Assembly: GCF_001447355.1 (NCBI RefSeq)
Contig: NZ_JXBW01000004.1
Span: 62,001 to 126,000, forward strand
Reading direction: 5' to 3'
DNA: 64,000 nt
DNA from: Alicyclobacillus tolerans
Lineage (GTDB): Bacteria; Bacillota; Bacilli; Alicyclobacillales; Alicyclobacillaceae
Shown: in pieces, positions 7,268 through 23,628 of the stretch
How the letters are laid out: each line of letters begins with the position of its first letter
Numbering within the stretch: position 1 is the stretch's first letter
Program-made: the position numbers and the translations under genes
Notes under the pieces: model-generated
What the model saw: only the letters and a program-made list of their open reading frames with translations
What the model was told of the DNA's origin: nothing
Database searches by the model: none

Positions 7268-9619
7268 TTACGATTGTGGTACGAGCGTCACCGTGCCGTT
7301 GGCTGGGATGACGCCGGTCAGGAGCGTGTCAGGCGCCAAGCCGTTGCTGACGGCTGGCGTCTGCGCGGCAATTTGAATGGTATAAACACCGCCTGACGGT
7401 TGTGCCGACGATGCCACAACAAAGTCACCACTGTGCAGGGTGATGAGTACTTTGCTCAAATTGCCGACCTGGTAGACGGGAATAGAAGTGGCCGTACCCG
7501 CCGGGTTCGTCACCTCGACGCGATATACATTCGTAAATTTCACATACTGCGAATCGACCCACCCGTAATTCACAATATGGTACCAAGGCATCACATACGG
7601 ACCCGCCATACCTTGTTCAATTTGATCAATCTGCACCTGGGTACCAGACGGAATCAAATTGGCGTTGGATTGATTGGGCTGGATGTATGTGGTCCACATC
7701 GCATAGCTCCAGATGCCATCGGGATTCGTCATATGCATAACCTGCGACTCAAACTTCTTGACCGCCGCCTCGGTAAGCGGGCCATATTGACCGTCGATCT
7801 GCAATCCCGCTCCAATCGTCTGATTCAGGTACTTTTGCACCTCTGCAACAGGCTGACCTGCGCTGCCGTTTTGCAACGGCCCAAAGAATTGTTGATTCAT
7901 GCCGGCAGCCATGGAAGGGAAGTACGGCACCCCACCGTTCTGGTAATAACTATCCGACTGAATGACGCCTGTGGCTCCATTCATGTAAAAGACGGGTTCC
8001 GTACTACTCTTCGGGGTCGGCGCCACATTCTGTGGCGAGTATTGTTTATACGCGCTCACACTCGAACCGACCGAACTTGCAAATTGCGTCATCAGGCTAC
8101 CAATGCCCGCAGCCCATTGCTTGTCCGTCGCGTAGTTGACATTCATACCTGTCAACGTCGGTGAGACGTACTCGCTGCCCCCGGGGTTGAGATAGTTATT
8201 GCGGACCTCCCACGCTTCAAAGCGGATTGCGTAATCGTCACTCGGGAACATACCCGCGTCATTACCGGGATTTGAATCGTACGCGCCGTATCCGAACAGA
8301 TTATTCTTTGCCAGTGCAATTTGACTTTGTCCCCAGTAACTCTCGAGAATGGCGTGAGAAACGAGATAGTTGGCGTCTACACCGTACGTGTTTTGGGCGT
8401 CCATAAATGAAGCACCCAACCCATTGAGTGGTGAATCGTTCGCAAGTAAGTATGAATTGATACTTGATGTATTGATGTTGGGGGGCGCCGGAAAGCGAAG
8501 GTCCACATTGGTAAACGACAGATTGGTTCCCGTCGAGCCGCTCGTGCCGCTTCCACTCGAATTGCCCGTGCTGTTGCCTGTCGTGTTCCCGGTACTGTTA
8601 CCCGTCATGTTGCCGGTGCTGTTACCCGTCATGTTCCCGGTGCTGTTTCCCGTCATGTTCCCGGTACTGTTACCCGTCATGTTGCCGGTGCTGTTACCCG
8701 TCATGTTCCCGGTGCTGTTTCCCGTCATGTTCCCGGTACTGTTACCTGTCGCGTTCCCCGTGCTGTTGCCCACAGGATCGGACGTCGTCACAACAACCGG
8801 AGCCGGCTTCATCGTCCACTGTGTCCCCTGCCAGGTCGATCCGACGCCAGCGCGCTTCAAAGCATTCATGACATACCAGATGGGCATGAACGTCGTCATT
8901 TTCCCGGAAGCCGGATCTGGATAGACGATGGCAATCACATTCGCCACGACGGTACCATTGATGGCAATCGCGGTGCTTCCTTTGCCATATTTAATGTTTG
9001 AGTAATCGACATTTGCTGCACTCGTCGATGGAGGGGTGATGTTCCAAACGCCATTTGCCCACACGTTGGCGTAGCCAGCCTGTTTCAGAGCCTGCATCAC
9101 ATACCAAATGGGCATGTAGGTCGTGCCGTCATATGTAAATCCAATCGGTGAAGAAACAGTGCTGCCATTAAAGACAATACGTTTGGCCTGCACATTGTTC
9201 ACAACATGGCTGCTTGCCGAAGCGACAACCGATGATACCTCATAAGCCGCGACAGCTTTCGCAATCGCTCCCCATGTGAGCGGGCCAACAACGCCGTCAA
9301 CCTGTAACTGGTTCACCTGCTGAAAAGCCTTGACCTGCGCTTCGGTGGTCGCGTCAAACGTCCCCGTTGCTTGCCCGACCGTAAAGCCAAGAGCGTTAAG
9401 ATCATTCTGAAGGACGGCGACGGATGGGCCTTGTGTCCCATATTGGAGCATCGGATAGGATTGCCAGGAAGATCCAAGGCCGAACGTCCCGCTTGAACTC
9501 GTGCTTGACGTATTCAATGCGGCATTGCTTGTGGCGGTCTGCGCCCACGCGGTGGGCGACTGAGACAGCGCAACCCAGGCAGGTAGCGCGAGCACCGCGA
9601 GTAGGCGACTAGATTTCAC
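7268..9619 (-). CDS. Secreted N-acetylglucosaminidase-type cell-wall hydrolase with stalk and peptidoglycan-binding domains
   Basis: Exported 783-residue protein. In order it has: signal peptide (about 1-26); a peptidoglycan-binding-1 domain (about 57-113); two copper-amine-oxidase-like stalk units (YMPIWYVMQALKQAGYANVW and a similar FMPIWYVMNALKRAG); a Thr/Asn/Ser/Gly repeat linker (about 285-365); a glucosaminidase domain with YLVSHAILESYWGQS and NNLFGYGA; a second peptidoglycan-binding domain; and a C-terminal SH3-like part. It probably cleaves or remodels the cell wall. GTG 9619 follows AAAAGGAGGA. It is the last gene of a three-gene leftward operon; the gene before it ends 25 bp upstream and encodes related stalk units. 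Confidence 0.88.
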   Translation of the reverse strand: MKSSRLLAVLALPAWVALSQSPTAWAQTATSNAALNTSSTSSSGTFGLGSSWQSYPMLQYGTQGPSVAVLQNDLNALGFTVGQATGTFDATTEAQVKAFQQVNQLQVDGVVGPLTWGAIAKAVAAYEVSSVVASASSHVVNNVQAKRIVFNGSTVSSPIGFTYDGTTYMPIWYVMQALKQAGYANVWANGVWNITPPSTSAANVDYSNIKYGKGSTAIAINGTVVANVIAIVYPDPASGKMTTFMPIWYVMNALKRAGVGSTWQGTQWTMKPAPVVVTTSDPVGNSTGNATGNSTGNMTGNSTGNMTGNSTGNMTGNSTGNMTGNSTGNMTGNSTGNMTGNSTGNTTGNSTGNSSGSGTSGSTGTNLSFTNVDLRFPAPPNINTSSINSYLLANDSPLNGLGASFMDAQNTYGVDANYLVSHAILESYWGQSQIALAKNNLFGYGAYDSNPGNDAGMFPSDDYAIRFEAWEVRNNYLNPGGSEYVSPTLTGMNVNYATDKQWAAGIGSLMTQFASSVGSSVSAYKQYSPQNVAPTPKSSTEPVFYMNGATGVIQSDSYYQNGGVPYFPSMAAGMNQQFFGPLQNGSAGQPVAEVQKYLNQTIGAGLQIDGQYGPLTEAAVKKFESQVMHMTNPDGIWSYAMWTTYIQPNQSNANLIPSGTQVQIDQIEQGMAGPYVMPWYHIVNYGWVDSQYVKFTNVYRVEVTNPAGTATSIPVYQVGNLSKVLITLHSGDFVVASSAQPSGGVYTIQIAAQTPAVSNGLAPDTLLTGVIPANGTVTLVPQS
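8560..8775 (-). repeat. Tandem 24-bp coding repeat (GNSTGNMT linker)
   Basis: About nine near-identical 24-bp units inside the glucosaminidase gene encode an eight-residue repeat NSTGNMTG. Units differ mainly by T/G/C third-base changes, with GNAT, GNTT and GNSS variants at the ends. The repeat forms a flexible linker and is prone to copy-number change by slippage. Confidence 0.9.
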
Positions 9620-13295: not shown

Positions 13296-13688
13296 ATGCG
13301 ACACATTGACAGGGATGCACACGGCCATCACGGTTCACATGGCAGGCACCACAAACATGGCAAAGGCCCACACAGCCACGCTGGGCACGGCAGCGGCCCG
13401 CAAACGTTTCGCCGCGGGCGAGCACTGGCCTTCTTGGAAACGCTCAATGTGCGGCGCTCGACGCTGACGCAGCAGCTGGAACAACCTGAGCTAACATCGA
13501 TTCATCCCGTGATCGCAGGCGAACTCAAGGCAATTGACATGATGCGCGACGAGTTTATAGCTATGTTTGACCTCCACGACACACACGAAGACACCGACAG
13601 CTACGAAGCGCCACAAACCAAGCACACCCCTCCGACCCAGACACCGGAACCTGTCGAGCAAGACGACCACACTGAACCAGATGCATGA
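13296..13688 (+). CDS. Small protein with His-rich N-terminus, function unknown
   Basis: A 130-residue protein. The first ~35 residues are packed with His, Gly and Lys, suggesting metal binding. A conserved-looking helical core follows (RRGRALAFLETLNVRRSTLTQQLEQ, then a stretch containing GELKAIDMMRDEF), then an acidic/Pro/Thr tail. I recall similar RRGRALAFL proteins in other Firmicutes, also of unknown function; this is memory, not a search result. ATG 13296 is 9 nt after AAAGGAG. It stands alone, is convergent with rpoN, and has palindromic operators directly before it. Confidence 0.75.
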   Translation: MRHIDRDAHGHHGSHGRHHKHGKGPHSHAGHGSGPQTFRRGRALAFLETLNVRRSTLTQQLEQPELTSIHPVIAGELKAIDMMRDEFIAMFDLHDTHEDTDSYEAPQTKHTPPTQTPEPVEQDDHTEPDA

Positions 13689-13745
13689 AGCAACGTAAGC
13701 GGGAGTACGGCTCCACACGCTGCACGTCAACATGGTTGCTCCCGC

Positions 13746-15038
13746 CTATCGTCGCCGCTTTTGCGAACTCGGGATCCCCATCTGCTCGCGATATTTTGCA
13801 ACCGTGCGGCGCGACAGGACAATGCCCTGTTGCGCCATGCACTTTGCGATCTCGGCATCCGACAGCGGCTTTCGGGCATCTTCCCTAGCTACCAGCGAAC
13901 GGAGCACATATTGTACCGCTTCTGCAGAAAGGCCGGATGTGGCCAATTGGGCCGGGAAAAATGCGTCCATCGCCCACACCCCGTACGGCGTTTTCATGCT
14001 CTTGTTGCGAAGTGCGCGGCTCACGGTGGACTCGTGGATATCCAACTCTTGCGCCACATCGCGCAGCGTGAGTGGACGCATATGTCCCGGGCCGCGTTGG
14101 AAAAACGGCTGTTGCCGCGCAACAATGACTTCCGCCACCCGTAGCATCGTCATGCGGCGCGTTTCGATAGCTTTGGCCATCCGCTCGATGGCTCGCAGAC
14201 GTGCGCCCAGGAAAGCGCGCACCTCTGCGCCACCGGATGCAAAGAGTGATCGGTAAGATGGCGAGACCCAGAGGCGGGGCTCGGCACTTTCCTGCACGCG
14301 AACGACAAACGTTTCGCCAGCGCGTTCGACGATGACATCTGGCGGCGCCAAGGCGAACGGCTCCCTGTCCCAAGCCGCACCCGGGCGCGGGGTTAGCCGC
14401 CGAAACTGCGCTAACACTTCATAGATGTCATCCAATGACGCATTACAGTTCCGTGCAACGACGCGCAATTTCCCCTGCGCAAGTTCGGTCATATGCGGAA
14501 GGAGCTTGCGAGCCAAGGCGCGATACGGCGGATCGATGCGTTCCAATTGCAAGAGTAGGCACTCCTCGACATTGCGTGCCCCCACCCCCAAAGGCTCACA
14601 ACTCTGTAGCGCAAATAAAGCCCTCTCGACTTCCTCCGTAGAAACGTCGAGGCGAACGGCCGTGACGTCCAGTGGATCGGTGAAATATCCGCGCTCATCC
14701 AGGCTGTGCGCAAGTTGCTCGGCAACGCGCAGCGTGCTTGGCGCGAGTGACAGCGTGCGCAACTGCCGACAAATCTCGTCCGCAAGCGAGGGACGTTCCG
14801 CTATTTGCTGGATCAGATCAGCACGCCCGGGCGTCGCGGCGCCTAATCCGACAAACCCGCTTGCAGTCATGGCCCACGGCCACTCCCATTCCAAGCAGGG
14901 ATTGTCTTGCGCCATCTCTTCCAGCATGTCAACAAGTTCAGTGGACGAAGCCTGCAAGACAGCCAGCGCCTGACGCATATCGGCGGTCATGACAAGCCTC
15001 TGACTCTGCTCCATGTCACCGCGAAACGCCATATTCAT
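13746..15038 (-). CDS. rpoN: RNA polymerase sigma-54 factor
   Basis: Directs RNA polymerase to -24/-12 promoters that need an ATP-hydrolysing activator. It has 430 residues. The N-terminal region I contains SQRLVMTADMRQALAVLQ, the core-binding region follows, and the C-terminal RpoN box reads SRRTVAKYREQ. ATG 15038 is 8 nt after GGAG, which lies in the end of the permease gene; the GTG at 15047 sits on that site and cannot use it. The gap to the permease stop is 5 bp, so the two are surely co-transcribed. Their shared promoter is itself of the sigma-54 type (16534-16549), which implies self-reinforcing expression. Confidence 0.95.
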   Translation of the reverse strand: MNMAFRGDMEQSQRLVMTADMRQALAVLQASSTELVDMLEEMAQDNPCLEWEWPWAMTASGFVGLGAATPGRADLIQQIAERPSLADEICRQLRTLSLAPSTLRVAEQLAHSLDERGYFTDPLDVTAVRLDVSTEEVERALFALQSCEPLGVGARNVEECLLLQLERIDPPYRALARKLLPHMTELAQGKLRVVARNCNASLDDIYEVLAQFRRLTPRPGAAWDREPFALAPPDVIVERAGETFVVRVQESAEPRLWVSPSYRSLFASGGAEVRAFLGARLRAIERMAKAIETRRMTMLRVAEVIVARQQPFFQRGPGHMRPLTLRDVAQELDIHESTVSRALRNKSMKTPYGVWAMDAFFPAQLATSGLSAEAVQYVLRSLVAREDARKPLSDAEIAKCMAQQGIVLSRRTVAKYREQMGIPSSQKRRR

Positions 15039-15043
15039 GCCTA

Positions 15044-16456
15044 TCACTCCGTCATCGTTTGCTGATTCACCGAAACCTGGCTGCGCCGGCGATAGAACAG
15101 ATAATAACTGAGTAGAACGATGATAATGATGGGCACACCAGCGTAAATGGCCATACGCTGCCCTGGAATGAAGAGAAGGCTAACTGCAATGGCCAAATTT
15201 AACACAACACCGGCGATCGGCAGGATGGGAAAGAGTGGCGTGCGATACGCCAAGGCGCGGACATCGCCTCCCTCGCGTACATACTTGCGCCGGAACCCAA
15301 TTTGCGAAGCGCAAATAATCGCCCAAGACAAGACAGCAATCAAACCGATGCCAGAGACAATCCACAAATACAGCGTATTCGGAGAAACCTGGTAAATCCA
15401 CAAAGATAGCGTGCCAATGACAAGGGTGGCAAGCACAGACCAGACGGGAACCTGTGCTTTGCTTAAGCGCGTTAAAAAGCGTGGAGCCATCCCGTCGAGC
15501 GCCATCGACCAAAGAAGGCGCGACGAAGCATAAGTCCAGGACGATCCGGCGGAAAGCGCCGAAGTAATGACAATCATGTCCATAATCAGGCGCGCATACG
15601 GGATGCCTGCAACCTGAAAGATGGTCGCGAATGGGCTGTCATTTAAGCCCGCTTTTTGCCAAGGAATGATACCAACTAAGACAATCATGGCGATGACATA
15701 GAACAACAAGGTGCGAACGCTCGTACTGCGTACCGCGCGCGGCACAGAGCGAGCCGGATCTTTGCTTTCTCCCGCGGCAATGCCGATTAACTCAGTGCCA
15801 CTGTAGGCGAAGCTAACCGGTACAAGAGCCATGAACACCGCGCCGATGCCGTGTGGGAATAAGCCACCCTGTCCCGTGTAGTTGTGCAGGCCGATGGCGC
15901 GGTGACCGGTGAGTCCAAAAATGGCCAGAATGCCCGCAATACAAGCAGCGACGATGCCAAACACCTTAATGCTGGCGAACCAAAACTCCGACTCGCCGTA
16001 TACGCCGACCCGGGTGACATTGAGCGCCAAATATATCACCGCAAACAAGGCATACCAGACCCATAAGGGAACGCCAGGCAGGTATTGGTGAATGATGATG
16101 GTCGCGGCTATCCACTCGCCGCCAATGGTGAACGCACCGTTAAGCCAATATAACCAGGCACTCAGATAGCCAATGGCAGGACTGATAAATTCCTGCGCAT
16201 ACGTCTTGAACGATCCGGCCACCGGCATGGCAGTCGCCAATTCGCCCAAACACATCATGACAATCGAAACAATGATGCCCCCAATTACGTACGCGAGCAC
16301 AGCGCCACCTGGACCTGCTTGATTGACGGTGTAGCCCGAGCTCAAGAACAGGCCCGTGCCAATCACTCCGCCAATCGAGATCATAAACATGTGTCGGGCA
16401 TGCATGCCTCGCCGCAAATGCGACTCCTTTTCCATGATCTGATCAAGTTGCTGCAT
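15044..16456 (-). CDS. Amino acid permease (APC superfamily, probably arginine/ornithine or basic amino acids)
   Basis: Twelve-span cytoplasmic-membrane transporter of 470 residues. The family hallmark MISIGGVIGTGLFLSSG lies in the first membrane span, with PGGAVLAYVIGG and FAYSGTELIGIAAGES further on. Uptake of arginine, ornithine or a related amino acid is inferred from context: it shares its sigma-54 promoter core and activator site with the rocA operon. The ATG at 16456 follows GAGGGAG; a TTG 21 nt upstream lacks a binding site. First gene of the permease-rpoN operon. Confidence 0.9.
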   Translation of the reverse strand: MQQLDQIMEKESHLRRGMHARHMFMISIGGVIGTGLFLSSGYTVNQAGPGGAVLAYVIGGIIVSIVMMCLGELATAMPVAGSFKTYAQEFISPAIGYLSAWLYWLNGAFTIGGEWIAATIIIHQYLPGVPLWVWYALFAVIYLALNVTRVGVYGESEFWFASIKVFGIVAACIAGILAIFGLTGHRAIGLHNYTGQGGLFPHGIGAVFMALVPVSFAYSGTELIGIAAGESKDPARSVPRAVRSTSVRTLLFYVIAMIVLVGIIPWQKAGLNDSPFATIFQVAGIPYARLIMDMIVITSALSAGSSWTYASSRLLWSMALDGMAPRFLTRLSKAQVPVWSVLATLVIGTLSLWIYQVSPNTLYLWIVSGIGLIAVLSWAIICASQIGFRRKYVREGGDVRALAYRTPLFPILPIAGVVLNLAIAVSLLFIPGQRMAIYAGVPIIIIVLLSYYLFYRRRSQVSVNQQTMTE

Positions 16457-16533
16457 CGCTCCACTCTCCCTCGCCAAGACAATGATAACGCTTACAACTA
16501 TACGTGAGAAACAGCTTTGTGATCATAAATCAC

Positions 16534-16549
16534 AGCAAGAATCGTGCCA
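16534..16549 (-). promoter_or_regulatory. Sigma-54 promoter of the permease-rpoN operon
   Basis: Minus-strand reading TGGCAC-GATTC-TTGCT has GG and GC exactly 10 nt apart, the sigma-54 requirement. The 16-base core is identical to that before rocA. Expected transcript start is near 16523, giving a ~65-nt leader. Confidence 0.9.
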
Positions 16550-16651
16550 AGTACCATTACAGGATCCCTCTAACCACATACAAAGCTGGATCAGCCGTTC
16601 GAAGGCGCAGCAAAGCTATCCCGCCGTGGAAAAACACGCCGCTGCGACAAA

Positions 16652-16697
16652 GAAAAAGGTGCAAACGCGCTTTTCATCTGCAAGCACGCTTTGCACC
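16652..16697 (-). terminator. Terminator of the RocR-like regulator gene
   Basis: Minus-strand stem GGTGCAAA / TTTGCACC with extra partial pairing (GCG/CGC), then TTTTTCTTT. The right-hand part of the hairpin coincides with the activator dyad at 16678-16696. Confidence 0.75.
16678..16696. promoter_or_regulatory. Putative upstream activator site for the permease-rpoN promoter
   Basis: CTGCAAG-CACGC-TTTGCAC, a dyad of half-site TGCAA. It matches the site before rocA (CTGCAAG-TACAG-TTTGCAC) in both arms and in spacing. It lies ~130 bp upstream of the sigma-54 promoter, a normal enhancer distance. Confidence 0.7.
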
Positions 16698-16733
16698 ACC
16701 GTGGGTGGCACTAAGTGTGCATAAGCATGCACA

Positions 16734-18311
16734 CTACTTGCGGTACACGGCCGGATCGACAGCTAATTCACGAAGCCAATACTGCAAGTTCTGGCGACTG
16801 AGCCCCAATTCTCGTGCAGTGGCAGAAACGTTCCCACCGTGACGTGCCAGCACCTCCATCAAGATCTGGCGCTCCGCCTGTTGGACTCGTTCCCGCCATG
16901 TCCCGACGCGCCCCGCTACTCGCTCGTCCTGTGTACGAGACGCAAAGTCCATCCCCCGTGCACCTTCATCCGCCGCATCTCCCTCCGCGCCAGAGGTTTC
17001 ATCCCGCGCGGCGGACGTATCCTGTTTGCGATCCGCCCCCACCCCCGCCGTCGCTTCCCGCGATGCGTTTTCTTGCAGAGCGCGTTCCAATTTGCGGCGT
17101 AGATGAAGTGGCACATGAGACAGGCCGAGTTCACGCTCATCCTGTAGTAAATTCATCGCACCTTCGACGGTATGTTCCAACTCGCGTACATTGCCTGGCC
17201 AATCGTATGCCAGAAACGCCTGTCGCAACGTCGGATGCATCCGTTCCACCGCCAAGCCAAAGCGGCGATTCAGTTTTTCAATAAACACCTCGACCAGTTG
17301 TGCAATGTCTTCTTTACGCTCGCGCAGCGGCGGGATCAACAACGCCACGACGCTCAGTCGATAGTATAAATCCTCCCGCAGGCGTCCTGCCGCGATGGCC
17401 TGTAGCGGATCCTCATTGATGGTCGCGAGAATGCGAACATCGATATGTCGGTCCTTTAATTCGCCCACTCGGCGCACCGCCCGTTCCTGCAGGACGCGCA
17501 GCAGTTTGGCCTGCAGTGGCGGACTCAACGAGTTTAGCTCGTCGAGAAGAAGCGTTCCGCCATCCGCCTGTTCGAGCAACCCAGGTCGGTCCACCGCCCC
17601 CGTGAACGCGCCGCGCGCCGTGCCAAAAAGCAACCCTTCCATGAGCGAATCCGGGATCGCAGCACAATTTTGCGAAACAAATGGCCCTTGGCTTCGGCTG
17701 CTCGCCGCGTGTACACTCTGCGCAAACAGCTCCTTTCCGGTCCCCGTTTCGCCAATGATGAGGACGGACGAATCCGTGCGTGCCGCCCGCATCGCCTGCT
17801 CCACCACTTCCCGGAGCACCGGACTGCTACCGACGATTGAAGCGAACGTGTAGCGAACACCCGACTGTCCGAGAAGCTGATTTTGCAGCCGTTCGACCGG
17901 CGTCACATCGCGGGCAATCTCAACAGCGCCGAAAACGCGTCCATCGGCGATGATTGGATACGTCCGGTTCACCGTCGTGATAGCTTTACCACTTTGATTA
18001 AAATACGTTTGTTTCACATTTTCGCGAGCCAGGCGCAAGCGCACGGCCTGCAGCAATGTACTGCCTGCGGCATCCGGAAATGTGAACACGTCTTCGATCC
18101 GCTTGCCGATCACGTCCCCCGGCCGCATGCCTTCTATATCAGCCATTTTCCGGTTGTAATAAACAGTCATACCATTGGCATCAATGATGTGAACACCTTC
18201 GTCCAGTCCCTTAAGAAGCCCCTCAAGCAGTCGTAAGCGAACAGCGTCCTCCACGTCACGTTCCCCTATCCAGCAAATTGATTGCGAACTCGGTAATTGC
18301 GAACTCGACAT
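16734..18311 (-). CDS. Sigma-54-dependent activator, RocR-like (PAS-AAA+-Fis HTH)
   Basis: Enhancer-binding protein of 525 residues that activates sigma-54 RNA polymerase. The N-terminal PAS domain (about 35-140) has VHIIDANGMTVYYN. The AAA+ domain carries Walker A GETGTGKE, the sigma-54 contact loop GAFTGA, Walker B TLLLDELN, and YRLSV. A charged linker precedes the C-terminal Fis-type helix-turn-helix (GGNVSATARELGLSRQNLQYWL). The PAS domain presumably senses ornithine or arginine, as in Bacillus RocR. I chose ATG 18311 because it is the first good start next to the PAS domain; upstream in-frame sequence overlaps the divergent control region. It sits between its two likely targets, the permease-rpoN operon and the rocA operon. 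Confidence 0.93.
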   Translation of the reverse strand: MSSSQLPSSQSICWIGERDVEDAVRLRLLEGLLKGLDEGVHIIDANGMTVYYNRKMADIEGMRPGDVIGKRIEDVFTFPDAAGSTLLQAVRLRLARENVKQTYFNQSGKAITTVNRTYPIIADGRVFGAVEIARDVTPVERLQNQLLGQSGVRYTFASIVGSSPVLREVVEQAMRAARTDSSVLIIGETGTGKELFAQSVHAASSRSQGPFVSQNCAAIPDSLMEGLLFGTARGAFTGAVDRPGLLEQADGGTLLLDELNSLSPPLQAKLLRVLQERAVRRVGELKDRHIDVRILATINEDPLQAIAAGRLREDLYYRLSVVALLIPPLRERKEDIAQLVEVFIEKLNRRFGLAVERMHPTLRQAFLAYDWPGNVRELEHTVEGAMNLLQDERELGLSHVPLHLRRKLERALQENASREATAGVGADRKQDTSAARDETSGAEGDAADEGARGMDFASRTQDERVAGRVGTWRERVQQAERQILMEVLARHGGNVSATARELGLSRQNLQYWLRELAVDPAVYRK

Positions 18312-18410
18312 CCCTACACCCGCCTTCGCGTGCAGCAAAGTCGACGCCGACAGCCGTGTATCAATATACAGCGCAGCTATCCATTCATACGAAAGTTGTG
18401 TGAAACTGCC

Positions 18411-18429
18411 CTGCAAGTACAGTTTGCAC
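18411..18429. promoter_or_regulatory. Putative upstream activator site for the rocA operon
   Basis: CTGCAAG-TACAG-TTTGCAC dyad, 65 bp upstream of the -24 element and matching the permease-side dyad. Probably bound by the RocR-like protein encoded next door. Confidence 0.72.
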
Positions 18430-18494
18430 GCCCGGTACAGACTCTGCAACCGACTTCCGTTCTGCGTGCCAAACAGATCAACTCGCGCACACGT

Positions 18495-18510
18495 TGGCAC
18501 GATTCTTGCT
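18495..18510 (+). promoter_or_regulatory. Sigma-54 promoter of the rocA-rocD-gdh-rocF operon
   Basis: TGGCAC (18495-18500), GATTC, TTGCT (18506-18510). GG and GC are 10 nt apart. Transcript start expected near 18521, 53 nt before rocA. Confidence 0.92.
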
Positions 18511-18573
18511 TCCAATATGGAGTGAGCAAGCGTTTCGCACAACTGCTTTCTTCTCTATCAAGGAGGATCTGGC

Positions 18574-20124
18574 ATGATACCATACCGTCCCGAACCTTTA
18601 ACGGACTTCTCTGCACCACATCACCAGGAGGCGTTTGCAGCTGCGCTCGCGCGTGTGCAAGAGCAGGTCGGCCAAACGTATCCACTCATCATTGGCGGAC
18701 AGACTGTCGATACCGGTCGCTACCTCGAGTCGTACAATCCGTCCGCAAAAACCGAATTGGTAGGACGTGTCGCGAAAGCTGGAAAACCAGAGATTGAACG
18801 GGCCCTTCGTTGCGCACAAGAGGCTTTTGCAATTTGGTCCGAGGTGCCAGTCGTGGAACGGGCTTCGCTTCTTTTTAAGACAGCGGCCATTCTGCGCCGA
18901 CGCAAGCACGAATTCTCGGCTTGGATGCTGCTCGAAGCTGGCAAGAGCCGTGCGGAAGCCGATGCAGATACGGCAGAAGCCATCGATTTTCTCGAGTACT
19001 ATGGCCGCCAAATGCTCGCATTGGCGCAGCGTGCCGATTCCCTTTTGACGCCGTTTGCTGGAGAAGACAATCATATGGAATACATCCCGCTTGGCGTCGG
19101 CGCCATCATTCCGCCGTGGAACTTTCCCTTGGCCATTGTCACAGGAATGACCGTCTCGGCCGTCGTCGCCGGCAATACCGTGCTGCTTAAACCCGCAAGC
19201 CAAACGCCTGTCATCGCGTACAAGATGGTGGAGGCTTTGCTGGAGGCCGGTATGCCAGCCGGCGTCGTCAACTTCGTCCCTGGCGATCCGGAGGAAATTG
19301 GCGACCTGCTGGTCGAGCACGCAGACATTCGCTTCATTTCGTTCACCGGATCGAGAGATGTCGGCTTGCGCATGAATGAGCTTGCGGCAAAGCGCATCCC
19401 GGGTCAGCGCTGGATCAAGCGGTTTGTAGCAGAAATGGGTGGCAAAGACGCCATCGTGGTCGATGCAGGGTATGATATCGACCTGGCTGCGCGCACCATT
19501 GTTCAATCCGCATTCGGCTTTTCCGGCCAGAAGTGTTCGGCGTGCTCGCGCGTCATCGCACATGCTTCGCTGTACGATCCGCTCGTCGAACGGGTCGCCG
19601 CATTGACCTGCGAACTCAAGGTGGGCGACGTGCGCGAGATGGCGCATTTCACCGGCCCGGTCATCGACCAGAAGGCATTCGCGAAGGTGACGAGTTATAT
19701 CGAGATCGGCAAGCAAGAAGGGCGGCTGGTGGCTGGCGGCGGCGCATCTTCAGACACGGGCTACTTTATTGAACCGACCGTTTTCGCGGATGTTGCACCC
19801 TCTTCGCGCCTGATGCAAGAGGAGATATTCGGGCCGGTTGTCGCCTTCACCAAATCGATGAGCTTTGAAGAGGCCATTGCGATTGCCAACCAAACGGAAT
19901 TCGGGCTGACAGGATCCGTCCTGACCCATGACCGTTCGCACATTGCCTATGCACGGCGCAAATTCCACGTGGGCAACCTATACTTTAACCGCAAGTGCAC
20001 GGGCGCAATCGTGGGCGTCCATCCGTTTGGTGGCTTTAACATGTCGGGCACCGACTCCAAAGCGGGTGGCCCGGACTACTTGCTGTTGTTCACACAACCG
20101 AAGGCGAGCTCCGAATTATTGTAG
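18574..20124 (+). CDS. rocA: 1-pyrroline-5-carboxylate dehydrogenase (L-glutamate gamma-semialdehyde dehydrogenase)
   Basis: NAD-dependent cytosolic enzyme converting glutamate semialdehyde/P5C to glutamate, the step after RocD in arginine breakdown and the last step of proline breakdown. At 516 residues it has the family length. Visible motifs: IPPWNFPLAI, the EMGGKDA segment with the general-base glutamate, FSGQKCSACSR with the catalytic cysteine, and the C-terminal GVHPFGGFNMSGTDSKAGGPDYL typical of this family. ATG 18574 follows AAGGAGG. First gene of a four-gene operon behind a sigma-54 promoter. Confidence 0.96.
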   Translation: MIPYRPEPLTDFSAPHHQEAFAAALARVQEQVGQTYPLIIGGQTVDTGRYLESYNPSAKTELVGRVAKAGKPEIERALRCAQEAFAIWSEVPVVERASLLFKTAAILRRRKHEFSAWMLLEAGKSRAEADADTAEAIDFLEYYGRQMLALAQRADSLLTPFAGEDNHMEYIPLGVGAIIPPWNFPLAIVTGMTVSAVVAGNTVLLKPASQTPVIAYKMVEALLEAGMPAGVVNFVPGDPEEIGDLLVEHADIRFISFTGSRDVGLRMNELAAKRIPGQRWIKRFVAEMGGKDAIVVDAGYDIDLAARTIVQSAFGFSGQKCSACSRVIAHASLYDPLVERVAALTCELKVGDVREMAHFTGPVIDQKAFAKVTSYIEIGKQEGRLVAGGGASSDTGYFIEPTVFADVAPSSRLMQEEIFGPVVAFTKSMSFEEAIAIANQTEFGLTGSVLTHDRSHIAYARRKFHVGNLYFNRKCTGAIVGVHPFGGFNMSGTDSKAGGPDYLLLFTQPKASSELL

Positions 20125-20196
20125 TAAGGCGTTTGCCACAAAACGGGGGCCTTACCCCCTGGGCCGCAGATTCAAATGAGAGAGGATGAGCATCCC

Positions 20197-21408
20197 ATGA
20201 CGGATCAGGCACAGACTTCCAAAGCACTGCGTTTGGAGCAAACATATGGAGCGAAAAACTACAACCCACTGCCAGTGGTACTAGTCAAAGGCGAAGGTGT
20301 TTGGGTTTGGGATGAAGACGGCAACCGTTACCTGGACATGTTGAGCGCGTATTCGGCGCTCAATCAAGGCCATCGCCACCCGAAAATCATCGCCGCCCTC
20401 AAAGATCAAGCGGATCAAATCACACTGACTTCGCGCGCGTTTTACAACGACAAACTTGGGCGCATGTACGAACGATTGGCCAAACTCACCGGCAAGCCGA
20501 TGATTTTGCCAATGAATACAGGCGCAGAAGCGGTTGAAACGGCCATTAAGGCGGCGCGCCGCTGGGCGTATGACGTGAAACACGTGCCTGCAGATCAGGC
20601 TGAAATCATCGTCTGCGAAGGGAACTTTCATGGACGCACGACAACCATCATCTCGTTCTCCTCGGACGCCGAGTACCAACGCGGCTTTGGCCCGCTGACG
20701 CCTGGCTTCCGCATCGTCCCCTACGGCGACATCGCGGCGTTGCGCGCGGCCATCACGCCAAACACCGCGGCCTTTTTGGTGGAGCCGATTCAAGGGGAAG
20801 CTGGCATTGTGTTGCCGCCAGATGGGTATCTGCGCGCGGCGCATGAACTGTGTAAGCAGAACAACGTCCTCTTTGTCGCCGATGAAATTCAAACAGGTCT
20901 AGGACGCACCGGGAAAATGTTCGCTTGTGAATGGGAACAAGTGGTTCCGGATGTGTACATCATTGGCAAAGCCCTCGGTGGCGGCGTGTTTCCCGTGTCG
21001 GCTGTCGCAGCGGACGAAGAAGTCCTTGGGGTCTTTGAGCCGGGATCGCACGGTTCGACGTTCGGCGGCAATCCTCTTGGCGCCGCGGTTGCCGTGGCCG
21101 CACTTGACGTGTTGGAAGACGAGGATCTCGTCGAGCGCTCGCGCACGCTCGGAGCGGCGTTTCTTTCCCGCCTTCGCAATGTGCACAGCCCGGTGGTGAA
21201 AGAGGTGCGTGGCCGCGGTCTGTTCGTCGGGGTTGAGCTCACCACCAAAGCTCGCCCCTATTGCGAACGCTTGAAACAAGAAGGATTGCTCTGCAAGGAG
21301 ACGCACGATACAACCATCCGCTTTGCCCCGCCCCTTGTCATCCGCGAGGAAGAACTGGACTGGGCACTTGCACGAATTGAACGCGTACTCACCGAGGTGA
21401 CACCATGA
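20197..21408 (+). CDS. rocD: Ornithine aminotransferase (ornithine-oxo-acid transaminase)
   Basis: PLP enzyme that transfers the delta-amino group of ornithine to 2-oxoglutarate, giving glutamate semialdehyde for RocA. It has 403 residues. The start [24 protein letters not shown] is diagnostic for this aminotransferase. [18 protein letters not shown], the [15 protein letters not shown] region with the PLP-contacting aspartate, and the PLP lysine in [15 protein letters not shown] are visible. ATG 20197 lies behind a GAGAGGATG site; the ATG 21 nt upstream has none. It overlaps the next gene by 4 nt (ATGA). Confidence 0.96.
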
Positions 21409-22676
21409 TTGCCGACTCTTTAATCCATGACGCGAATCAAGAGATGGATGTCCTGCGCTCGGCACAGACCGTGATCCGCGCAGCCCTCGAACAACTCGGT
21501 TACGGGCCACAGTACTATGAACTGCTTAAAGAACCGCTGCGCATGCTCACCGTGCGCTTTCCCGTCCGCATGGACGATGGCAGTGTGCAGATCTTTACGG
21601 GTTACCGCGCCCAGCACTCGGACGCGGTTGGCCCGACCAAAGGCGGCGTTCGCTTTCACCCTGATGTCAATGAGTCGGAAGTCAAGGCACTCTCGCTTTG
21701 GATGACCATCAAGTGCGGCATCAACGGCTTGCCGTATGGCGGTGGCAAAGGCGGTGTCGTCTGCGATCCGCGCCAGATGTCGTTCGCCGAGCTCGAGCGC
21801 GTCAGCCGCGGATACGTTCGCGCCATTAGTCAAATTGTCGGTCCGACAAAAGATATCCCTGCGCCTGACGTGTTCACCAATTCGCAGATCATGGCGTGGA
21901 TGATGGACGAATACAGCCACCTGCGCGAATTCGATTCACCCGGCTTTATCACCGGCAAGCCGCGGGTGCTCGGCGGATCGGAAGGAAGGGAGACGGCGAC
22001 GGCGCGAGGCGTGCTCATTTGCATCGAGGAGGCGGCAAGACGGCGCGCGATGCAACTGCAAGGAGCCCGCGTGATCATCCAAGGCTTCGGCAACGCCGGC
22101 AGCTATCTGGCACAGTTTTTGCATGAGCAGGGCGCCCGCGTGGTTGGGATCAGCGACGCATACGGCGCACTGTACGACGAACGAGGTTTGCCAATTCCTG
22201 ATCTGCTCGAGCAACGCGACTCGTTTGGCACCGTGACGACGCGCTTTCAAAATACCATCAGCAATCAAGAATTGCTTGAGAAGCCGTGTGACATCTTGGT
22301 GCCCGCCGCGATCGAAAACCAAATCACGGCAGATAACGCGGATCGCATTCAGGCAGCCATCGTTGTGGAAGCGGCGAATGGGCCGACGACCCTGGAAGCG
22401 ACACGCATCCTGAGCGATCGCGGTATTTTGCTGGTGCCAGACGTACTCGCCAACTCCGGCGGCGTGACGGTATCGTACTTCGAATGGGTTCAGAATAACC
22501 AGGGGTATTACTGGACGCGCGAAGAAGAGGAACAGCGTTTGGCACAAGCCATGCGCCAGTCGTTTGAAAAGGTGTACGCCACGTCCGTGCGCCATCAAGT
22601 GGATATGCGCCTGGCTGCGTACATGACAGGCATTGAACGTACGGCACAAGCTACACAGCTGCGCGGCTGGCTCTAA
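21405..22676 (+). CDS. rocG: Glutamate dehydrogenase (Glu/Leu/Phe/Val dehydrogenase family, catabolic)
   Basis: Deaminates glutamate to 2-oxoglutarate and ammonia, feeding carbon from arginine into the TCA cycle. It has 423 residues, the hexameric NAD-type length. The substrate-binding motif [28 protein letters not shown] and the Rossmann segment [16 protein letters not shown] are visible. ATG 21405 overlaps the rocD stop codon and follows GAGGTGA, so translation is coupled. Placing GDH inside the roc operon is logical for a complete pathway; in Bacillus subtilis rocG is a separate unit. The gene name is by analogy. Confidence 0.93.
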
Positions 22677-22731
22677 GCCCAGCCGCCTGGCGAGTGGCTC
22701 ACCCATTTTGTAAGGAAAGCAGGGAACGGAC

Positions 22732-23628
22732 ATGAAGGAGATTCACATCATCGGCGTACCGTCCGACTACGGCCAAAACCGCCGCGGCGTCGACATGGGG
22801 CCAAGCGCCATCCGCTATGCCGGCCTCAAGGAGAAACTTGAGCGTCTCGGCTACCGTGTCCGCGATCTTGGCGATGTCATGGTGCCAACCCCGGAAACGC
22901 GGCACATTGAGCATCAAAAGCTGAAATATCTCAAAGAGGTCGTCTCGGTCTGCGAGGCCTTGGCTGAGCGGGTGCGCGATGCCGTCGGAAACGGATACAC
23001 CCCTGTCATTCTTGGGGGCGATCACAGTATTGCCATGGGCAGCCTGGCTGGCATGGCCGCTGCCAAAAAGCAATTCGGCGTGATCTGGTTTGACGCGCAT
23101 GGCGACATGAACACAGACGAAACCACGCCTTCCGGGAACATCCACGGCATGCCGCTAGCAGCAAGCATCGGCATCGGGCACGAGGCGCTCACGGGCCTAT
23201 TCGGCATTCGCCCGAAGGTGCAGCCGGAGAATGTCGTCCTGGTCGGGGTTCGCTCCATCGATCCGCCCGAAGCCGAGCTGATTCGTCAATCAGGCGTGCA
23301 CGTATTCACCATGGCCGACATCGATCGGATGGGCATGGACGCCGTCATGCGCAAAGCGATTGAGCTTGCGGCAACGGGGACGGACGGCATCCATCTCAGC
23401 CTGGACCTGGACGGCCTGGATCCCATGTTCGCCCCGGGCGTCGGGACACCGGTCAATGGCGGCGTGACCTATCGCGAAGGACACCTTGCCATGGAACTTT
23501 TGTCCGAGTCCGGTACGCTTTTGTCTGTCGACGTCGTCGAAGTTAACCCCATTCTCGACCACCGCAACCAAACGGGACGCATGGCCGTCGAACTGGTGGA
23601 ATCGTTGTTCGGAAAACGGGTGTTGTAA
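22732..23628 (+). CDS. rocF: Arginase
   Basis: Manganese enzyme that hydrolyses arginine to ornithine and urea, the first step of the pathway. It has 298 residues, the family length. Metal-binding motifs GGDHSIAMG, FDAHGDMNT and SLDLDGLDP are complete. ATG 22732 follows AAGGAAAGCAGGGA. It is the last gene of the operon, 55 bp after glutamate dehydrogenase. No urease is in the window. Confidence 0.97.
   Translation: MKEIHIIGVPSDYGQNRRGVDMGPSAIRYAGLKEKLERLGYRVRDLGDVMVPTPETRHIEHQKLKYLKEVVSVCEALAERVRDAVGNGYTPVILGGDHSIAMGSLAGMAAAKKQFGVIWFDAHGDMNTDETTPSGNIHGMPLAASIGIGHEALTGLFGIRPKVQPENVVLVGVRSIDPPEAELIRQSGVHVFTMADIDRMGMDAVMRKAIELAATGTDGIHLSLDLDGLDPMFAPGVGTPVNGGVTYREGHLAMELLSESGTLLSVDVVEVNPILDHRNQTGRMAVELVESLFGKRVL

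Follow-up and report, generated by a model that had tools for sequence, protein, structure and literature searches.

Sigma factors determine which genes can be read, and the present locus raises the question of how the gene for one of them, rpoN (sigma-54), comes to be read itself. In the window (the whole 64-kb stretch of DNA that was analysed), rpoN is the distal member of a pair headed by an amino acid permease gene; both are co-directional with the gene for an enhancer-binding protein (EBP), and the three are divergent from a rocA-rocD-gdh-arginase operon (Table 1). The reading that we favour, at a probability of roughly three in four, is that permease-rpoN would be an operon that depends on sigma-54 and belongs to the roc module of arginine catabolism. 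If rpoN reached full transcription only when sigma-54 and an inducer were present and preferred carbon was absent, it would be a compact autoregulatory switch.

Table 1. Features of the roc-rpoN locus, numbered by position in the window
Feature	Position	Strand	Remarks
rpoN (sigma-54; AID, CBD, DBD, RpoN box)	13746..15038	-	distal gene of permease-rpoN pair; ATG at 15038
Amino acid permease (AA_permease family)	15044..16456	-	ATG at 16456; stop 15044-15046
cre-like box TGTAAGCGTTATCA	16483..16496	-	about +28..+41 from predicted permease-rpoN start
Predicted transcription start of permease-rpoN	16523	-	C of TTGCT taken as -12
-24/-12 promoter of permease-rpoN (predicted)	16534..16550	-	17-mer TTGGCACGATTCTTGCT; TGGCACGATTCTTGCT at 16534-16549
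Imperfect EBP-type dyad	16660..16676	-	one mismatch; second dyad on permease side
Perfect dyad TGCAA-N7-TTGCA	16679..16695	-	candidate EBP upstream activating site, permease-rpoN
RocR-like EBP (PAS, Sigma54_activat with GAFTGA, Fis-type HTH)	16734..18311	-	525 aa from ATG 18311
Perfect dyad TGCAA-N7-TTGCA	18412..18428	+	candidate EBP site of rocA promoter
-24/-12 promoter of rocA operon (predicted)	18494..18510	+	same 17-mer as permease promoter
rocA-type L-glutamate gamma-semialdehyde (P5C) dehydrogenase	18574..20124	+	above NCBIfam cut-offs
rocD, ornithine--oxo-acid transaminase	20176..21408	+	above NCBIfam cut-offs
Glutamate dehydrogenase-type protein	21405..22676	+	Pfam ELFV_dehydrog; best NCBIfam models are glutamate dehydrogenases, below cut-offs
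Arginase family protein (rocF-like)	22732..23628	+

Anatomy of the predicted permease-rpoN operon

The rpoN product carries the activator-interacting-type (AID, 50.8 bits), core-binding (CBD, 152.7 bits) and DNA-binding (DBD, 183.6 bits) Pfam domains of a sigma-54 factor, together with the string SRRTVAKYRE as the RpoN box; it scores 368 bits against TIGR02395 (cut-off 277) and is the single Sigma54_DBD match in the genome. The gene upstream belongs to the AA_permease family (391 bits, Pfam); none of the NCBIfam transporter models listed for it rises above its cut-off, so its substrate is assigned from gene context. Coordinates and scores thus bear out the initial annotation, which had rpoN following an amino acid permease gene at a distance of 5 bp.

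That annotation also described a textbook -24/-12 element before the pair, and this description holds. The element matches TTGGCACG-N4-TTGCW at exact spacing and occupies an intergenic promoter position. Perfect TGGCAYRNNNNTTGCW sites number 11 in the genome (2.81 Mb, both strands), so that about 0.0005 would be expected per strand of one 260-bp gap. Two of them are the promoters of the roc module, one falls by position within gdh and eight lie within called ORFs, not all of which need be real; clear promoter positions are confined to the permease-rpoN and rocA sites. For relatives, promoters were ranked by a weighted 17-mer score built on what we take to be the sigma-54 consensus. A comparison of the locus across related genomes, which the annotation had proposed, finds both promoters in all seven genomes with the complete cluster: the rocA-side element is at full score in each, and the permease-side element is at full score (28.5) in five and, with TTGGCAT, at 27.0 in two. 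Promoters of the same type in Bacillus thuringiensis, e.g., TTGGCACGATATTTGCT, are reported to be sigma-54-dependent (PMC4428206), and sigma-54-dependent transcription is the best reading of, and our prediction for, the permease-rpoN element.

Between the two promoters lies the EBP gene, whose product combines a sensor domain, an AAA domain with GAFTGA and a Fis-type HTH with adjoining roc genes, as expected of a RocR-like protein. Among the NCBIfam matches listed (25 of 30), no model scores above its cut-off, and the RocR label is accordingly given by domain and context only; the neighbouring genes point to arginine/ornithine as the ligand. GAFTGA has its sole genomic match in this protein, and its codon pattern occurs once each in G000, G003 and G011. 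A second PF00158 match was not counted as a sigma-54 activator, since GAFTGA is replaced by GGLLSEA; a protease assignment for it was dropped because Pfam gives a full PAS-AAA-HTH protein. Perfect TGCAA-N7-TTGCA dyads, of which the genome holds 12, occur only twice in the window, each upstream of one -24/-12 promoter, and are likely EBP binding sites. The rocA-side dyad is found with at most one mismatch in all seven cluster genomes, and the permease-side dyads are weak (mostly two mismatches, about chance density) in the four loci that we label acidocaldarius-type (L033, L037, L038, L041).

Downstream of the predicted start lies a box that resembles the cre consensus. It is present in all seven cluster genomes (perfect in three, with one mismatch in four) at a constant 51-58 bp from the first base of the promoter, and suggests that permease-rpoN may follow an 'arginine AND NOT good carbon' logic. 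The best CcpA candidate in the genome scores 380.7 bits, short of the 442 bits set as cut-off for the family. To the initial annotation the present analysis adds the cre-like box, the presence of just one GAFTGA activator, and the relocation and recurrence described below.

A proposed feedback circuit and its basal supply

Taken together, these elements would form the following circuit. The EBP would sense arginine or ornithine, bind the dyads and drive sigma-54 polymerase at both promoters; induction would raise both products at once, the permease bringing in more inducer and sigma-54 giving more polymerase, in two nested positive loops. With preferred sugar present, CcpA would block elongation on permease-rpoN, and through this proposed block the supply of sigma-54 would itself come under carbon control. 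The basal rpoN needed to start the loop would probably come from the EBP gene, which is co-directional and may be read through, or from a weak sigma-A start. Sigma-54 would in this genome be a pathway-specific factor, with a single GAFTGA activator and two clear promoters, of which one is that of rpoN itself. At the level of sequence, the locus has what defines an autoactivated rpoN superoperon, an EBP/sigma-54-type promoter upstream of an rpoN-containing operon; positive feedback is thus well supported as anatomy, and from it we infer the loop.

The initial annotation had gone further, taking the sigma-54 element as the only promoter visible for the pair. Its picture of a sigma-54-driven, arginine-linked operon stands as the best reading of the promoter, the GAFTGA EBP, the dyads and the divergent operon; the claim to a sole source of rpoN is unproven, as EBP read-through or sigma-A-like matches could provide basal rpoN. 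A scan of 13500-18700 gives eight sigma-70-like matches, where shuffles give 2.9 (sd 1.5). Five of the eight lie on the rpoN strand, from 16550 down to 15120: the best (TTGGCA-17-TATGAT, 10/12) overlaps the -24/-12 element, one overlaps the leader and three (9/12) lie inside the permease gene, the nearest (15147-15120) about 80 bp before the rpoN ATG. It is possible, with the odds leaning against it, that the sigma-54 promoter serves the permease and that rpoN is fed mainly by such constitutive transcription, whether by EBP read-through, from the match on the -24/-12 element or from within the permease, with the loop as a minor boost. The co-directional order of EBP, permease and rpoN would allow this, terminator-like matches being no more frequent than chance (seven against 6.0 in shuffles), though one (16682-16660) falls in the EBP-permease gap, and in Rhodobacter capsulatus a weak constitutive promoter is reported to be required in addition to the activated one (PMC6925177). 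Set against it, in alignments judged by eye the match overlapping the -24/-12 element is common to G003 only, and none of the three intra-permease matches still scores as one in the four acidocaldarius-type genomes. A weak test, conservation at synonymous sites of the permease, reaches 0.75 (95% null maximum, 0.775); no window exceeds shuffles, and hence no conserved internal promoter is seen. Internal permease promoters may differ between species.

Relocation, apparent loss and recurrence of the arrangement

The rocD-rocA / EBP-permease-rpoN synteny is found in seven genomes, the present one included; an eighth, G008, has permease-rpoN on a contig that begins inside the permease. In a tree of 60 of the 61 loci (the window and L032-L091, without L081, which is broken by a contig end), the roc-linked rpoN genes of these eight genomes group in a single clade (support 96/88). 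At 18 of 21 other loci in the family rpoN adjoins cggR-gapA, but it does so in none of the 13 rpoN-bearing genomes of the genus, window included; for L056, the second locus of G026, the contig starts close behind rpoN and the missing cggR-gapA is uninformative. Judged by gene order, rpoN has evidently moved away from the family's usual rpoN-cggR-gapA locus.

Another possibility is that the linkage arose passively when the genome was rearranged and persists by neighbourhood, with no selected feedback. A single clade, and so a single event, fits this account, as does the fast divergence of rpoN, which is 39-41% identical between the two subgroups (the permease, 84-88%) and could be under relaxed constraint. 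So does G013, in which rpoN is absent (an apparent natural loss) and the cluster, the EBP and the promoters, including the -24/-12 element upstream of the permease, are kept, so that one species does without the arrangement. We nevertheless consider passive linkage unlikely: the core TTGGCA[C/T]-N5-TTGCT is kept across the subgroups although, at conserved residues of the permease, only 41% of the codons are the same, and rpoN stands behind sigma-54-type sites in other lineages, which speaks against pure accident.

In about six further lineages of Bacilli, rpoN is distal in operons behind sigma-54-type promoter sites: MBL-ADH-ALDH-rpoN (G004/G007), a P5CDH-type gene-rpoN divergent from proline dehydrogenase (another family), ABC transporter-rpoN (G048/G052), M24 peptidase-rpoN (G254), aminotransferase-ALDH-rpoN (Paenibacillus montanisoli) and an EIIA-man-type operon-rpoN (G248). 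The operon survey, in which 14 of 200 loci had no usable rpoN ORF, missed the known cases L072, L073, L038 and L041 (in L072 at least, a spurious ORF breaks the chain), and its yield is therefore a lower bound. Between 200 and 5000 bp upstream of rpoN, 110 other Bacilli loci hold 15 sense (14 loci) and 13 antisense (11 loci) -24/-12 matches, against one and none for reversed-motif controls; between -200 and -30, 111 loci hold eight and six, against none in either control. The excess on both strands marks sigma-54-rich neighbourhoods and not only rpoN-directed promoters. Among 80 named loci, those listed by a scan with an rpoN alignment and used as a broad survey, there is no clear far-upstream excess (four sense and two antisense; controls two and none), which makes P. 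montanisoli the weakest of the recurrent cases. Activator-free sigma-54 at the permease-rpoN promoter might instead mainly repress, as a closed complex or decoy imposing negative autoregulation without arginine, since the holoenzyme binds promoters in an inactive state (PMC4591121) and -24/-12 matches lie 30-200 bp before rpoN in eight of the 111 loci and in eight of the 80 named ones. At the present locus this is improbable: the promoter comes with dyads and a gene for an EBP, and its copy precedes a catabolic operon, all of which favours activation.

Returning to the activated circuit, we tentatively suggest, at somewhat short of even odds, that sigma-54, which in other organisms works with many activators, has shrunk here to an arginine/carbon-gated pathway-specific factor and, moreover, that 'capture' of rpoN by sigma-54 catabolic or transport operons may recur in Bacilli; if so, such loops would make nutrient use switch-like and hysteretic. 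Recurrence across lineages makes this a question for comparative genomics and not an anecdote. The system suits tests of boot-up from a low level, of bistability and of the path by which a regulator of wide scope becomes local, and G013, in which promoters and EBP remain intact, is a natural case ready for comparison.

Comparison with known systems

To our knowledge, sigL, the sigma-54 gene of Bacillus subtilis, is not within its roc cluster, unlike rpoN here. The arginine-catabolic genes of the B. subtilis roc regulon (rocABC, rocDEF, rocG) are reported to be under RocR and SigL (PMC4348106), and rocG has a cre downstream of its start, at +43 (PMC3463425), much as the present module has a RocR-like EBP, predicted sigma-54 promoters and a cre-like box downstream of the permease-rpoN start. 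A cre-type box at the sigma-54 gene is likewise common to both, with CcpA at the B. subtilis sigL cre acting as a roadblock to elongation (Choi and Saier, 2005, cited in PMC4348106 and PMC3463425) and a similar role proposed here; the present box differs in lying in the permease-rpoN leader, behind a sigma-54 promoter.

Self-activation of rpoN, which the initial annotation presented as a departure from usual control, has precedents. Sigma-54 promoters have been computed as enriched before rpoN in Bacilli and other classes, 'implying autoregulation' (PMC12316311, published in 2025); this enrichment is statistical, and in its available part that paper links rpoN with neither a permease-rpoN operon nor an EBP or a cre box. 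In the nifU2-rpoN superoperon of R. capsulatus, rpoN is autoactivated (Cullen et al., 1994, cited in PMC6925177), and there as here rpoN is distal in an operon with an EBP/sigma-54-type promoter upstream, the present case being known from sequence. The R. capsulatus system is that of a proteobacterium and pairs NifA with nitrogen fixation, whereas ours pairs a RocR-like EBP with arginine; it has a reported constitutive rpoN promoter, where none was identified here; and its available description includes no cre box, in contrast to the cre-like box of the present leader. Titles and abstract openings, with subscription literature incompletely covered, yielded no description of an amino acid permease-rpoN operon. 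The closest known system is nifU2-rpoN.

The rpoN operon and the arginine module around it

The initial annotation placed a permease-rpoN pair behind a textbook -24/-12 element, and its coordinates for the two genes and their promoter are right, the 5 bp between the permease stop codon and the rpoN ATG is borne out by the sequence, and the element has both the consensus bases and the consensus spacing. The rpoN gene is the single Sigma54_DBD match in the whole 2.81-Mb genome. Perfect TGGCAYRNNNNTTGCW sites number only 11 in the entire genome, and an identical copy of the 17-mer lies on the opposite strand before the rocA-type gene of a divergent operon. Together, the four enzymes of that operon would convert arginine to 2-oxoglutarate. 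The P5C dehydrogenase and the transaminase score above NCBIfam cut-offs; the glutamate dehydrogenase-type protein passes none among the matches listed, and no NCBIfam model above cut-off names a substrate for the permease. An enhancer-binding protein (EBP) is encoded between the operons. The 64-kb window holds just two perfect TGCAA-N7-TTGCA dyads, one 5' of each promoter, out of 12 sites genome-wide. Among the seven genomes with the complete cluster, the rocA-side dyad has at most one mismatch in all seven; on the permease side, the three closest genomes have good dyads and the other four weak ones.

Features of the locus (positions in the window)
Feature	Position	Strand	Remarks
Exported protein, large (predicted)	7268-9619		TGNSTGNM-type tandem repeat (by eye)
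rpoN	13746-15038	minus	three sigma-54 domains (Pfam); TIGR02395 above cut-off
cre-like box TGTAAGCGTTATCA	16483-16496		about +28 to +41 from predicted start; perfect match to the cre consensus TGWAANCGNTNWCA
-24/-12 promoter TTGGCACGATTCTTGCT	16550-16534	minus	permease-rpoN
Dyads	16679; 18412		
Inverted repeat GTGTGCAT-GCTT-ATGCACAC	16715-16734		from last base of EBP stop codon; similar form in G003 and G011
EBP	16734-18311		PAS-AAA-Fis with GAFTGA
GTATCAATATACAG	18358-18371		upstream of EBP gene; similar form in 7/7 cluster genomes; possibly -10 region of EBP's own promoter
Second copy of 17-mer	18494-18510	plus	63 bp before rocA-type gene
Divergent operon	18574-23628		P5C dehydrogenase, ornithine transaminase, glutamate dehydrogenase-type protein, arginase family protein

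The promoter account of the initial annotation stands as to the -24/-12 element and missed the cre-like box of permease-rpoN. Three places in the window match the cre consensus perfectly (16483, 56120 and 57817), where 20 base shuffles gave none on average. Three of the seven cluster genomes have a perfect box and four a box with one mismatch; its distance from the first base of the promoter is 51-58 bp in every one, and the rocA promoter lacks such a box. The best CcpA candidate in the genome, at 380.7 bits, falls below the family cut-off and is likely CcpA. According to PMC3463425, the B. subtilis rocG gene has a cre at +43; for sigL, work cited by PMC4348106 and PMC3463425 reports a CcpA roadblock.

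Proposed circuit and the reach of sigma-54

In the most likely working of the locus, arginine or ornithine would activate the EBP and sigma-54 polymerase would then fire both promoters, the permease importing more inducer and RpoN providing more holoenzyme; on good carbon, CcpA would halt elongation into permease-rpoN. A loop lacking any other source could not restart from zero, so a basal rpoN supply is needed. Transcripts reading through from the EBP gene might provide it (terminator-like matches do not exceed chance, 7 vs. 6.0, although one falls in the EBP-permease gap), as might a sigma-A-like TTGGCA-17-TATGAT at the same spot as the -24/-12 element or one of the three sigma-A-like matches, weaker still, that the permease gene contains. 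Sigma-A-like matches overall exceed shuffles (8 vs. 2.9), but the ones within the permease are not conserved in the four cluster genomes that we call acidocaldarius-type, and permease codon conservation revealed no special window.

The sigma-54 regulon seems to be small. The GAFTGA codon pattern has one copy each in the window's genome, G003 and G011, and two or three in each of the five other roc-linked genomes. A second, EBP-like PAS-AAA-HTH_8 protein of the window's genome (locus L093, G000:C26, ~9.5-11.2 kb) has had its GAFTGA loop lost and replaced, and is probably a sigma-54-independent relic regulator; GAFTGA is also absent from the longest ORFs at the genome's five other Sigma54_activat matches. 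The 11 perfect sigma-54 sites comprise the two promoters, one inside gdh by position and eight within called ORFs, not all of them cleanly: that on C6 overlaps its ORF's first codons, and C11:57387 and C34:53762 lie in short, possibly spurious ORFs, the latter ~250 bp ahead of an ABC-transporter-like ORF. If one mismatch at most to the perfect pattern is allowed, the two strands together have 158 sites, vs. 91 for the reversed pattern, and additional sigma-54 promoters are possible among them.

Relocation, apparent loss and recurrence

The complete rocD-rocA / EBP-permease-rpoN cluster occurs in G000 (the window's genome), G002, G003, G009, G010, G011 and G014, all seven with both sigma-54 promoters, and permease-rpoN is seen at a contig edge in G008. 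In the rest of the family, 18 of the 21 loci examined have rpoN next to cggR-gapA or a short way off; G025, G035 and one copy of the two in G026, itself uninformative, are the exceptions. The window's genus has 13 rpoN-bearing genomes and not one shows this arrangement; in five of them (G001, G004, G006, G007, G012) rpoN is located elsewhere again. All eight roc-linked rpoN genes fall into a single clade (support 96/88), so that one move explains them all. Divergence between subgroups is far greater in rpoN (39-41% identity) than in the neighbouring permease (84-88%) or in rocA and rocD (78-80%). Two rpoN matches per genome were seen in G053 (L070, L071; identical proteins), G026 (L055, L056) and G052 (L068, L069).

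No rpoN was found in G013 (L118:11041-13974), whose cluster is otherwise intact and keeps both sigma-54 promoters. Its EBP is open to the stop codon, with GAFTGA, and the permease frame continues directly into a downstream DUF4855-type gene. Unless there is an assembly error, G013 is a natural rpoN loss.

In other lineages too, rpoN is a distal gene downstream of a sigma-54 site that fits the consensus or nearly does. It follows MBL-fold, ADH and ALDH genes, divergent from an EBP, in G004 and G007 (sites in both, genes identified in G004); a P5CDH-type gene in genus g51 of another family (6/6 sampled of 11 listed genomes; gene order from L089, L236 and L239, Pfam from L089 and L236, both with a proline dehydrogenase on the opposite strand); ABC transporter genes in G048 and G052 (Pfam in G048); an M24 peptidase in G254; an aminotransferase and ALDH in Paenibacillus montanisoli; and an EIIA-man-type operon in G248. 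Of 111 loci from other Bacilli, 8 have a close-in site (-200 to -30), as do 8 of 80 named loci from a wide range of phyla; the reversed motif gives none. Because antisense matches in Bacilli are nearly as frequent (6/111 close in; further up, 13 vs. 15 sense), part of this recurrence reflects sigma-54-rich neighbourhoods; at the named loci, far-upstream matches show no clear excess over control (4 vs. 2).

Comparison with known systems

Enrichment of sigma-54 promoters before rpoN in Bacilli was described in a 2025 report (PMC12316311). What the present locus adds is a link to arginine, one single GAFTGA activator, a cre-like gate and the move of rpoN away from cggR-gapA. The closest likeness is to R. 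capsulatus, where, as described in PMC6925177, rpoN is likewise distal in its operon and autoactivated from that position.
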